From Planctomycetaceae bacterium (GTDB taxonomy: Bacteria; Planctomycetota; Planctomycetia; Planctomycetales; Planctomycetaceae), in NCBI GenBank assembly GCA_002726205.1, contig PBSL01000021.1, positions 76,830 to 140,829 of the forward strand: 64,000 bases of DNA, given 5' to 3'. The notes beneath the pieces are model-generated. The model saw nothing but the letters and a program-made list of their open reading frames with translations. It was not told the DNA's origin and did no database searches. Positions 11,656 to 28,482 of the stretch are shown here, piece by piece; positions within the stretch are counted from its first letter, which is position 1; every line of letters starts with the position of its first letter. Position numbers and translations under genes: made by a program.

Positions 11656-11769
11656 TTATTCCTCATCGGCAACCTGGTCAAAGTCCATTATGTCCTCTCG
11701 AACGGCCAGAGAAAAGTGGAGACTGCCAAACGCAATCCACTGACTGGTTTCCCCTGCAGCAGCAAACCT

Positions 11770-24347: not shown

Positions 24348-24455
24348 TCCTCCCCCAACAATGATCTCGGCGGCAGCCGACAACGCCACCTAGCCACCCG
24401 TGAGTTTCCCGGCTATGCTCCCGGAACCACGGTCGTGACACGAGGCAATCCGGGG

Positions 24456-25526
24456 ATGAAAAACGCCCTCCTGGCACTCGCGCTGGTGCTGTTGACCAAC
24501 CGCTCGGCGATCTTGGTCGCCCAGACGGTCAAGCCGCGGCGGGCCGTCTCGAAAACCAACGTCCGTGTCGAACTGATCACCGACCGTCGGGGCGCCCCAC
24601 TGGCAGCCCAGCGATGGGCCCGTATCTTCCAACGATTTCGTGTCCCGCTGAGAGTACGGCGTGAACTGGGAAGCGAGCGGACCTCGGTCGAGGAACAGAC
24701 AACCGGATCGCTCCGCCGTGTGACGGTGATCGGCCGACTCGAACGATCCGGCCGGATCCTGGTGGCCGGCAAGACCTTCTCGCCCGCCAATTCGACCGCT
24801 CTGGGCAAGTGGCTCGAGGGGCTGCGAACCTTCGGAGCCCGGGGCGATCCAAAGGGCCAACCGGCATTCGGCCTCAGCCAGGGCCAGTTCCAGGAACTCT
24901 TCGAGACACTCGCACAACCGGTCAAGGCCGACCTCAGCGGCAAACCGCTAAGCGAAGCGATCCGCTCGCTGCAAATCCCCTCCTCCTATCCCCTCCAACT
25001 CGGCCCCGTCACCGACAAGACAACGTCGAAGGTCCCCCCGCGGACCAACGGATATGGGCTCTCGCGAGGTTCCACGCTCGCTGCGATCCTCTCCGCCGCC
25101 GGACTGGCTTTCCATCCCCGTCGAACGCCGACCGGTCGCGTGGAACTCGTCATTGGTGCCAGGGATGCGGCAACGCGATCCTGGCCCCTGGGATGGCCGC
25201 CACGCCTGACCCGCCTGAAGACAGCGCCCTCGCTGTTCAAGATCGTGCCGGTCAACCTGGACAAGTCACCCCTGCTGGAGGTCATCGACGCCATCGCGGT
25301 CAAGACCGAGGTCCCGATGCTGATCGACCATCGCGCCATCGGCACCAGCAGGCTGAAGCTGAACTCTCTGACCGCCACGGTCCCGGCCAAGAAAACCTCC
25401 TGGTTTCAGTTGCAGAAGACCATCACCAATCCTCATCATCTGACTCGCGATCTGCGAATCGACGAATCCGGTAAACCATTCGTACTGGTCACGGTGATCC
25501 AACCCAAGCGGGCTCGTCTCGACTGA
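24456..25526 (+). CDS. Exported protein of unknown function
   Basis: A 356-residue protein with a signal peptide (MKNALLALALVLLTNRSAILV, about 28 residues). It then has two alpha/beta segments of ~100 residues that look related to each other: PVKADLSGKPLSEAIRSLQI near residue 165 and PVNLDKSPLLEVIDAIAV near residue 270. The 'L-x-(D/E)-A-I-x-x-(L/I)' helix after a strand resembles the small secretin/TonB short N-terminal fold, but this is a weak comparison. ATG 24456 follows GAGG and begins the signal peptide. There are no informative neighbours. Confidence 0.65.
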   Translation: MKNALLALALVLLTNRSAILVAQTVKPRRAVSKTNVRVELITDRRGAPLAAQRWARIFQRFRVPLRVRRELGSERTSVEEQTTGSLRRVTVIGRLERSGRILVAGKTFSPANSTALGKWLEGLRTFGARGDPKGQPAFGLSQGQFQELFETLAQPVKADLSGKPLSEAIRSLQIPSSYPLQLGPVTDKTTSKVPPRTNGYGLSRGSTLAAILSAAGLAFHPRRTPTGRVELVIGARDAATRSWPLGWPPRLTRLKTAPSLFKIVPVNLDKSPLLEVIDAIAVKTEVPMLIDHRAIGTSRLKLNSLTATVPAKKTSWFQLQKTITNPHHLTRDLRIDESGKPFVLVTVIQPKRARLD

Positions 25527-25573: not shown

Positions 25574-26074
25574 ATGTTCACCGGACCCCAAATCGTCTCG
25601 CTGCTGACAGAACTCGGGATCACTCACGTGGTGACCATCCCGGACAGTACACTGGGACAATGGGAAGACGACATCCGGGCGGCAGCGGCGATCAGCTATC
25701 TGGGAGTGTGTCGCGAAGGCGAAGCGTGGGCTGTGGCCGCGGGGTTGTACCTGGGAGGAGCCCGTCCACTGGTCATGATCCAGTGCACCGGTCTGTTCGA
25801 GTCGGGTGACTCACTTCGCAATGCCCTGTTCGATTACCAGCTGCCCCTGTTCGCGATGATCGGCTACCGCAGCTTTCTCAGCCAGGCCACCCTGCCCGGG
25901 GACACCTGCCTGGCGTTCACCGAACCGGTCCTCGATGCCTGGGGACTGGACTGGGTACTCTACGACCGGCCCGAAGACCTCCCCGGCCAACTCGAAGCGA
26001 TCGCCGGACAATACCATCGCTGTCAGGAAGCCGGCGTTCCGGGTGTCGCGCTGGTCGCAGAAGGAAGAGCCTAG
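25574..26074 (+). CDS. ThDP-dependent decarboxylase, PYR-domain subunit
   Basis: A 166-residue protein equal to the N-terminal (pyrimidine-binding) domain of ThDP decarboxylases. The activating Glu is in VCREGEAWAVAAGLYLGG (about residue 48-50), and the following VMIQCTGLFESGDSLRN strand-loop is as in the sulfopyruvate/phosphonopyruvate decarboxylase branch. It is followed two bases later by the PP-domain subunit, so the pair should form one heteromeric enzyme acting on a 2-oxo acid. The split format resembles ComD/ComE sulfopyruvate decarboxylase. No coenzyme M or phosphonate genes are nearby to fix the substrate. Confidence 0.82.
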   Translation: MFTGPQIVSLLTELGITHVVTIPDSTLGQWEDDIRAAAAISYLGVCREGEAWAVAAGLYLGGARPLVMIQCTGLFESGDSLRNALFDYQLPLFAMIGYRSFLSQATLPGDTCLAFTEPVLDAWGLDWVLYDRPEDLPGQLEAIAGQYHRCQEAGVPGVALVAEGRA

Positions 26075-26076
26075 CC

Positions 26077-26694
26077 ATGGCGACCGGAAACGACACCACG
26101 TCGAGCGGAATGCCGCTGGTCGAATCACTGCAGGTGCTGCGGGACACCCGGGGTGACGACGAGGTCGTACTGACCGTGATGGGCACGGCGCGGGAATGGA
26201 TGGCGTTGGGCGACTTGCATCCACTGGATTGGATCTATGTCCCTTCGAGCATGGGCCAGGCCCCCAGCCTGGGCCTGGGCATGGCGCTGGCACAACCGGG
26301 GAAAAACGTGGTCGTCTGCAATGGTGACGGTTGCCTGCTGATGAACCTCGGTTCGCTGGTCACGATTACCCAGCAGGCCCCGAAAAATCTCACGCTGATC
26401 ATCTTCGACAACGGCATCTACGAGATCACCGGCGGACAGCCAACACCGGCGATCGATGACGACGGGTCGCGAGTTGACTACCCCGGGCTCGCGCGCGCTG
26501 CAGGTTTTCAACAGGTTCACGTCTTCGACGACCTCGTCAGCTGGCAGGCGGCCGCCCGCGACCTGATCGACGCCGATGGACCAACGTTCATCCACCTGTC
26601 AATCTCACCGGTCCCCGGTGCCAGCGGTCCCCGGTCACCGAGCAAGGCACCACCCCGCGCCCACGCATTCGCAAAGAGCTTCCGGGCAGACTGA
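26077..26694 (+). CDS. ThDP-dependent decarboxylase, PP-domain subunit
   Basis: A 205-residue protein carrying the pyrophosphate-binding half of a ThDP enzyme. The ThDP/Mg motif begins at NGDGCLLMN and ends with FDNGIYEITGG, the usual GDG to N spacing. The last ~30 residues (Pro/Ser/Arg-rich) look like an unstructured tail. The GAAGGAAGAG of the preceding gene's end serves as its ribosome site. With the upstream subunit it makes a complete active site at the interface. Confidence 0.83.
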   Translation: MATGNDTTSSGMPLVESLQVLRDTRGDDEVVLTVMGTAREWMALGDLHPLDWIYVPSSMGQAPSLGLGMALAQPGKNVVVCNGDGCLLMNLGSLVTITQQAPKNLTLIIFDNGIYEITGGQPTPAIDDDGSRVDYPGLARAAGFQQVHVFDDLVSWQAAARDLIDADGPTFIHLSISPVPGASGPRSPSKAPPRAHAFAKSFRAD

Positions 26695-26716: not shown

Positions 26717-27040
26717 CTACGGCTTGGTCGCATCGTCACAGACGCAGACCATTTCGCCGCATCCCGGGCAGCCGGCCGCGTACTTGTCCAAGACGGCCTG
26801 TTCCAGGTCAATTCCAGCCACGTTGGCGATTGTCGCCAACCAGGCCAGCACATCGGCGAATTCGGCAGCAGCCTCGGCGGAATTCCCCTCCCGCAACGCC
26901 GCGGCCAGTTCCCCCACTTCCTCCATCAACCACATGAAGGTCCCGTCGACCCCCCGTGCTTCGTCCTTCTGCGAATACATCGTCTCGATCAACTGCTGCA
27001 GGTCGCTCAGGCTGAATCGCCCGGATCGCTCGTTGGTCAT
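26717..27040 (-). CDS. MazG-like nucleotide pyrophosphohydrolase with C-terminal Cys motif
   Basis: A 107-residue all-alpha NTP pyrophosphatase-type protein. The metal-binding motif EEVGELAAAL followed by EFADVLAWL is the EExxE...ExxD pattern. The C-terminus adds CPGCGEMVCVC, a possible metal-binding tail seen in some small MazG-like proteins. It probably removes noncanonical nucleotides. ATG 27040 has GTGAGG eight bases upstream; the longer frame running to 27301 would read through the small-RNA terminator at 27179-27220 and is rejected. Confidence 0.82.
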   Translation of the reverse strand: MTNERSGRFSLSDLQQLIETMYSQKDEARGVDGTFMWLMEEVGELAAALREGNSAEAAAEFADVLAWLATIANVAGIDLEQAVLDKYAAGCPGCGEMVCVCDDATKP

Positions 27041-27178: not shown

Positions 27179-27220
27179 AAAAAATACGCCGCGGTCCCAT
27201 GTCTGACATGGAACCGCGGC
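27179..27220 (-). terminator. Rho-independent terminator, minus strand
   Basis: A 16-bp hairpin, GCCGCGGTTCCATGTC (27220 to 27205) against GACATGGGACCGCGGC (27203 to 27188), with one mismatch and a one-base apex. It is followed on the minus strand by GTA and six T. No T-run follows on the plus strand. Confidence 0.8.
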
Positions 27221-27375
27221 TATCAAGAACAAACCTCTCACCATTTTACGGCGGTAGCTGTGAGTAGGACCGGGTTGTGCCTGGGACAAACCGGAAAACA
27301 CCGGCCGGCTGACCTGTCCAACTCTACGCGTTAGGGCACCTCCGAGTTATTGGCTGATTGAGAGGTCTGGTTGTC
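27179..27375 (-). ncRNA. Candidate structured small RNA (~195 nt), identity unknown
   Basis: On the minus strand a sigma70-like promoter (27383-27411) is followed by a transcript ending in a strong rho-independent terminator (27179-27220). The body is closed by an 11-bp long-range stem: CAGACCTCTCA (27369 to 27359) with TGAGAGGTTTG (27240 to 27230), one pair being G.U. That pair works only if the minus strand is transcribed; on the plus strand it is A/C. Inside, GGACA/TGTCC encloses CCGG/CCGG, and GTGCC can pair with GGCAC. Size, a closing stem and an open centre recall 6S RNA. I do not see the conserved sequences of tmRNA, RNase P RNA or SRP RNA. Confidence 0.5.
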
Positions 27376-27382
27376 GTGCAGC

Positions 27383-27411
27383 AATTTAGATCGGCAGGTC
27401 AAGTCTGGTAA
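27383..27411 (-). promoter_or_regulatory. Possible promoter of the small RNA
   Basis: Minus strand: TTACCA (27411 to 27406), a 17-base spacer, TAAATT (27388 to 27383). It predicts a start near 27375, just outside the closing stem. Confidence 0.4.
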
Positions 27412-27594
27412 TTTGGGGAAATTCACGAATTCCAACGGATCGGAGGTTTTCATCAATCGTGAGAGGTATACTGGCCCGTCTTTGCGGGCAGTCGGCACCA
27501 TCGCCGTTGGCAAACGGTGATGCTGGCCGGAGAATCGGAATTATCCATACAAACCGATCACGACCATCGGGCGGATGACACAGGGAGCATGAGC

Positions 27595-28482
27595 ATGAAA
27601 GCATCAGCAACCACAGAAGCGACTTCCACGACCGGCGAGATCAATCGCCGGGTCTTCCTGGCCACAACCGGCCTGGCCGCCGGTGCCATCGTGACTGGCG
27701 AGAAGAACGCGGTGGCGGCCAAGTCGCCCTACGCCGAGTTCAAGATGGGGGTGCAGAGTTATTCGCTGCGCGGATTCGATACCGCCACGGCGTTGAAACA
27801 CACGCGGCGACTGGGCCTGAGCTATTGGGAAGCCTACCCCCGGCATGTCCCGCTGGGGACGCTGCCGGCACACATCCGCAAGCAGAAAGCGATTCTCGAG
27901 AGTGCCGGGGTCAAGTTGATTGCCTACGGCGTGATCGGGTTTGACGCAAACGAGGCGAAGGCTCGCCAGGCGTTTGATTTCGCCAAGAAGATGGGAATCG
28001 TTTCGCTCAGTGCCAACCCGCAGAAGAACAAGGCGACCTTCGACCTGCTGGACAAGCTGGTCGAGGAATACGGTGTGGCCATTGCGATCCACAATCACGG
28101 TCCCGGCGCGCTGTACGACAAGATCTCCGACGTGGAACGGATGGTCAAGGACCGGCATCCACTGGTCGGTGCCTGTGTCGACACGGGTCATTTCCTTCGC
28201 AGCGACGAGGATCCGGTCGAGGCGATCCAGCGGTTGGGACGCCGTGTCTTTGGCGTGCACCTCAAGGACGTGCTGACCGTCACCAAGGCCGGCAAGAAAC
28301 GCAAGCTCTTCAAGATCCTCGGCGAGGGCGATCTCAACGTGGTCGGCTGCCTGAAACTTCTGCGGAAGTTGAAGTACGACAAGTGCCTGGCACTGGAATA
28401 CGAAGAAAACCCCAAGAACCCGTTATCGGACATCGAGGTCTGCCTGAAGACCGTGCGGGGGGCGATCAAGCAGCTGGGTTGA
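27595..28482 (+). CDS. Exported sugar phosphate isomerase/epimerase-like TIM-barrel protein
   Basis: A 295-residue protein of the xylose isomerase-like (AP endonuclease 2) TIM-barrel group. A twin-arginine type signal (NRRVFLATTGLAAGAIV) covers residues ~17-40, so it probably acts in the periplasm. Metal-site candidates are the His/Asn-rich AIHNHGPG, the VDTGHFLRS strand, GVHLKDV and ALEYEENP. These match the E/D/H ligands of the fold. Planctomycetes encode many secreted members with unknown substrates. Start 27595 is chosen over ATG 27589 because GGGAG is then seven bases away. Confidence 0.82.
   Translation: MKASATTEATSTTGEINRRVFLATTGLAAGAIVTGEKNAVAAKSPYAEFKMGVQSYSLRGFDTATALKHTRRLGLSYWEAYPRHVPLGTLPAHIRKQKAILESAGVKLIAYGVIGFDANEAKARQAFDFAKKMGIVSLSANPQKNKATFDLLDKLVEEYGVAIAIHNHGPGALYDKISDVERMVKDRHPLVGACVDTGHFLRSDEDPVEAIQRLGRRVFGVHLKDVLTVTKAGKKRKLFKILGEGDLNVVGCLKLLRKLKYDKCLALEYEENPKNPLSDIEVCLKTVRGAIKQLG

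Follow-up and report, generated by a model that had tools for sequence, protein, structure and literature searches.

The gap between two divergent genes in a 64,000-nucleotide stretch of a Planctomycetaceae genome (hereafter the window, meaning the whole of the DNA that was analyzed) raises the question of whether it holds an RNA gene in its own right and, if so, what such an RNA might do. The initial annotation had proposed a structured small RNA on the minus strand, with its own promoter and terminator and with an architecture recalling 6S RNA. The cell biology of planctomycetes is unusual, and their catalogue of described small RNAs is very short. For the whole PVC group, a 2022 review gives 8 annotated kinds of small RNA (PMC9029176).

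Anatomy of the locus

The gap runs from the start of a mazG gene (27040) to the start of an isomerase-like gene (about 27589), and we assigned the following features to it and its borders:

27179..27376, minus strand: small RNA gene, body and terminator, about 195 nt; 5' end approximate; conserved at full length in genomes G189, G190 and G191
27359..27369, minus strand: 5' strand of the closing stem P1, CAGACCTCTCA = CAGACCUCUCA; partner 27230-27240
27339..27344, minus strand: conserved CGGAGG on the 5' side of the junction; predicted partner in this lineage CCGCCG
27262..27324, minus strand: long arm P2 with apical hairpin, drawn from the family's strongest covariation and the window fold
27249..27254, minus strand: conserved CCGCCG, counterpart of CCACCG in hairpin P3 elsewhere
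27230..27240, minus strand: 3' strand of P1, TGAGAGGTTTG = UGAGAGGUUUG; partner 27359-27369
27188..27220, minus strand: intrinsic terminator hairpin of 15 pairs, found by a consensus scan
27179..27184, minus strand: terminator T run, six T
27386..27395, minus strand: TGCCGATCTA box upstream of the RNA, invariant in 4/4 close members
27407..27417, minus strand: distal block CCCAAATTACC of the promoter region, invariant in 4/4 close members while its flanks diverge
26717..27040, minus strand: MazG-type pyrophosphohydrolase, downstream neighbor, outside the RNA
27589..28482, plus strand: xylose-isomerase-like TIM barrel protein, divergent neighbor, outside the RNA

The closing stem is as it was first described: P1 has 11 bp including a single G-U pair (27367/27232), and among 500 dinucleotide-shuffled versions of the 233-mer, 2 contained a helix like it. 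The terminator also has the hairpin and six T attributed to it, although the hairpin contains 15 pairs and not 16. Against dinucleotide shuffles, the fold of 27179-27411 has z = -4.0 on the minus strand versus -2.9 on the plus strand. Since the upstream gene is divergent, we infer that a one-way terminator at this position can serve only a transcript begun within the gap.

The proposed promoter fared less well. TTACCA (27406-27411) and TAAATT (27382-27387) do exist, spaced by 17 nt, but they match the sigma-70 consensus at only 8/12 positions, and TAAATT is not conserved in the sister genus, where TAGTGC, TAGTCC or TACTGT stands instead; the pair was not reported by our consensus scan. Some lineages have good hexamers at the expected place, e.g., TGGACT-17-TACAAC in L139, L141 and L143. 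The motif TGCCGAT lies upstream of the RNA in 22/45 non-redundant regions, against 0.028 expected per 110 nt, or about 17 times background. Because its position ranges from -20 to -99, it does not behave as a fixed -10 element. The longer form TGCCGATnTA was also seen on the minus strand at 11665, where an ORF begins right after it, and L002 has it as TGCCGATCT upstream of a csrA-like gene; given that it occurs at other genes too, planctomycete promoter regions may share it as a general element.

Elsewhere in the window, two adjacent plus-strand ORFs (25574-26694) together cover a thiamine-pyrophosphate enzyme, one with its N-terminal half (PF02776) and the other with its C-terminal half (PF02775), and resemble a two-subunit decarboxylase. 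The pair follows two other ORFs, one aldehyde-dehydrogenase-like and the other weakly AMP-ligase-like, and between the aldehyde dehydrogenase and thiamine-pyrophosphate enzyme ORFs is a 363-aa ORF (24435-25526, plus strand) with no Pfam match.

Distribution, covariation and autonomy

A direct DNA search of 59 relatives found no convincing homologue. Three of its BLAST matches were rejected: L003 falls inside a glucose-6-phosphate-dehydrogenase-like gene, L052 falls inside a cytidylate-kinase-like gene, and L002 is a 35-nt promoter-region similarity upstream of the csrA-like gene. The region upstream of the conserved mazG, by comparison, yielded the element over its entire length in three genomes of the sister genus (G189, G190, G191), at 69-74% identity; their copies keep CCCAAATTACC upstream and the T run at the end while the sequence diverges on both sides. 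A covariance model built from these three and the window RNA (R1) matched L074 and L075 weakly, although at full length and with a strong terminator directly behind each; a further R1 match, L076, was discarded as a coding-like region with a poor closing stem. The flanks of the divergent isomerase supplied four more members (L101, L106, L107 and L111); strong motifs are common to the members.

We then searched 84,980 named species for an exact 22-mer and recovered 20 records, planctomycete only, each with a closing stem and terminator. Alignment A6 comprises 21 broad members, among which invariance of the 22-mer is an effect of selection, and it was used, with the window lineage left out, to build a second model (R2). 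Alignment A7 comprises 49 model hits, which were not selected by the 22-mer but are fitted to the model. R2 found exactly one match per genome in 128/170 genomes of the family (45/58 genera) and in 213/397 evenly drawn genomes of the class (101/185 genera). The remaining 42/170 family genomes, a handful of which belong to the window branch, had no R2 match. The class and family were covered by R2 and the phylum beyond the class by the 22-mer alone, and taxonomic names come solely from the named records of the 22-mer scan. The RNA is single-copy in the genomes where it is detected, and it occurs across most of the family and in roughly half of the class genomes sampled. Its lineage specificity, as originally suggested, stands on a broader scale than foreseen: the RNA extends over many families of the class and is not confined to one genus.

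Both models place the window RNA in this class-wide family. When R2 was run on the 64-kb window, the RNA was its top match (21.7 bits, E 0.0011), a score below the genome-wide cut-off, as the window lineage is a diverged branch reached by R1. We therefore base its homology on this best R2 match in the window together with R1, isomerase synteny, the closing stem and the terminator.

The alignments also allowed us to examine the pairing that had been predicted. In A6, both sides changed at 18/33 pairs, and the covariation score was 0.393 versus 0.184 +/- 0.012 for shuffles. In A7, double changes occurred at 26/33 pairs, including all 10 modeled P1 pairs and all 10 pairs of helix 3 in the long arm, while 96.6% of cells were paired; here the score was 0.538 against 0.201 +/- 0.009 for shuffles, and slid controls reached at most 0.093. 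The family architecture consists of a closing stem P1 around a long arm that covaries, joined in most members by a small hairpin that is invariant. Because this hairpin, P3, is nearly invariant, covariation is silent on its pairing.

Conservation is concentrated in the junction and the small hairpin, not in one exposed seed. The junction strand AUUCCGnCGGAGG is conserved and mostly unpaired, and CGG at the CGGAGG columns is invariant in 45/45 distinct members. In the window branch, where the P3 stem is eroded, the fold instead predicts pairing of CGGAGG with CCGCCG, at a probability of about 0.99 in the window. We also considered a candidate pseudoknot between CGGAGG and the P3 loop, whose outer pairs fit in 45/45 members and whose columns 37/130 fit only partly; its letters are mostly invariant, so that covariation lends this contact no support. 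A small ORF behind GGAGG was rejected by eye, since no start codon is conserved at a suitable distance.

A terminator lies 0-11 nt past the end of the body in 48/49 members, compared to 29% of random stretches under the same lax criteria. The neighboring genes, in turn, change with lineage and include isomerase, DUF1080-like, xylose-isomerase-/histidine-kinase-like and aminotransferase-like genes (names assigned by eye), and in one genome the orientation of the RNA relative to the isomerase is reversed. We are thus highly confident that the element is an autonomous structured RNA gene, and the structured minus-strand RNA of the initial annotation is borne out by homologues, covariation and terminator conservation alike.

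As for known families, covariance searches of Rfam 15 with members from many lineages returned no family match at gathering or permissive thresholds; matches to naRNA4, raiA, Pxr and tfoR were far below cut-off and were set aside as chance. The literature we searched holds no description of such an RNA, nor are planctomycetes mentioned in the main text of three large surveys of new bacterial RNAs. We regard the RNA as a probable new family that occurs across the class, and its description improves annotation.

Proposed function and competing readings

We consider it probable that the locus is an autonomous gene for an RNA of about 195 nt and the local representative of the class family, and that its product acts in trans as a putative housekeeping-like, protein-bound regulator or scaffold. 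Transcription would start from the RNA's own promoter in the gap and end at its own terminator, and the resulting stable RNA would act in trans, with the conserved junction as a putative binding site for a protein or large complex such as RNA polymerase, the ribosome or an RNA chaperone. By analogy, the RNA might have a global role, as regulator or scaffold, and act in the manner of 6S or Ms1 while being a member of neither. The anatomy, single copy, breadth and conservation pattern of the RNA are what suggest its expression, trans action and junction binding.

For the protein-bound mode of action itself, we regard the case as evenly balanced. The conserved junction could serve folding alone, and the erosion of the P3 stem in the window branch would be odd if P3 were the binding site. 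More tentative still is the idea of a class-wide housekeeping RNA that binds a core machine, RNA polymerase or the ribosome, in parallel to 6S; we lean against it, although, if true, it would add a further type of machine-bound regulatory RNA missed by earlier searches. The RNA is single-copy, has been retained across many families of the class and is missing from Rfam, which makes it a prime candidate core regulator; cultivable genera, if they carry it, would offer a clear test bed for expression, partners and deletion phenotype.

A possible, if doubtful, alternative is a base-pairing RNA that targets mRNAs in trans near their ribosome-binding sites, through the apical loop of P3, which is C-rich (UCCACC and variants), or through an exposed CGGAGG. 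Such a role would suit a stand-alone gene with a terminator, and the C-rich loop is complementary to purine-rich ribosome-binding sequences. However, the loop differs by lineage (UCCACC, GCAUCC, UCGACC, CCCACC) while the structure around it is the conserved part, and in the window branch the corresponding segment is not a hairpin loop at all.

It is very unlikely that the window RNA represents 6S in this genome, whether as the 6S RNA itself or as a second paralogue. The two resemble each other in length, in a P1 stem with a long arm, and in closing-stem letters similar to those of relatives' 6S (AACCUCU..AGAGGUU). Set beside the 6S layout, a closing stem and a large central bubble of open-promoter type within a rod, the RNA gives an ambiguous picture: the closing stem and long arm are there, and the junction is asymmetric and carries a third hairpin. 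RF00013 found no match in the window, in L051, L074, L075, L101, L106, L107 or L111, or in 18 further loci, at E cut-offs of 0.5-10, and R2 in turn matches no 6S gene. Moreover, the RNA and 6S occur together in many family members and in 12/37 carriers outside the family (at a loose E <= 1). The window genome has its own diverged 6S at G000:C69:137414-137600 (L069:1501-1687), which scores 17.5 bits against RF00013, below the Rfam cut-off, and adjoins a RarA-type ATPase gene (L069:124-1458, minus strand), the same neighbor as in relatives' 6S. With the true 6S at that locus, we rejected the window RNA as the orthologue of the rarA-linked 6S of relatives, in agreement with the earlier view that it is not a recognized 6S.

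RF00013 was recognized in 42/59 relatives, and these results together point to a 6S that is often retained in diverged form within this family and that escapes notice in some genomes because the standard model fails there. As a separate observation, sampled genomes of families f2, f3 and f4 mostly have a recognizable 6S and essentially no R2 match, whereas those of family f5 mostly have an R2 match and no recognized 6S, a possible complementary pattern of the two RNAs.

We find it highly improbable that the element is a cis-acting leader of mazG, i.e., a riboswitch or attenuator whose terminator controls read-through. In the window and three sister genomes mazG does lie just downstream on the same strand, but it is not downstream in other members, and the changing synteny largely refutes this reading. 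In addition, no Rfam riboswitch matched, P1 and the terminator do not overlap, an antiterminator or alternative fold was not found, and the interval between terminator and mazG has no conserved sequence. Finally, gap sequences can hold hairpins by chance, but homologues, covariation and terminators contradict a chance hairpin and terminator here, and indels in the arm together with double changes are incompatible with a conserved protein frame, such that both ideas can be dismissed.

Comparison with known RNAs

The autonomous RNA gene we favor has partial counterparts among known systems. As in the leaders of intrinsic-terminator riboswitches, a terminator stands behind a structured body in our RNA, and in the window mazG lies downstream of it; unlike those leaders, our RNA has no common downstream gene and no overlap of body and terminator. 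The Rhodopirellula-1 motif was also reported in Planctomycetes (PMC2864571); it is listed as probably cis-regulatory and as occurring in Proteobacteria as well (PMC2864571), features that distinguish it from our RNA, although the two might be one and the same. Sponges of the CsrB/RsmZ type carry many GGA repeats in loops, which our RNA does not: the alignment contains only one conserved GGA, within CGGAGG.

Together with Ms1, the closest analogue in mode of action would be 6S RNA (RF00013), which is similar in size, single copy, organized as a closing stem around a long irregular arm, and encoded in its own transcription unit. Unlike 6S, the RNA has a terminator directly behind P1 and an invariant small hairpin on the 3' side; it shows no sequence or structure match to RF00013, its conserved junction is different, and its locus differs from that of the rarA-linked 6S in the same genomes. 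The Ms1 and CoRP RNAs of actinobacteria are abundant and structured, lack 6S sequence, and bind RNA polymerase (PMC11077062). They are longer (about 300 and 500 nt) and belong to another phylum (PMC11077062), although their binding of RNA polymerase illustrates, by analogy, a mode of action that our RNA might share.
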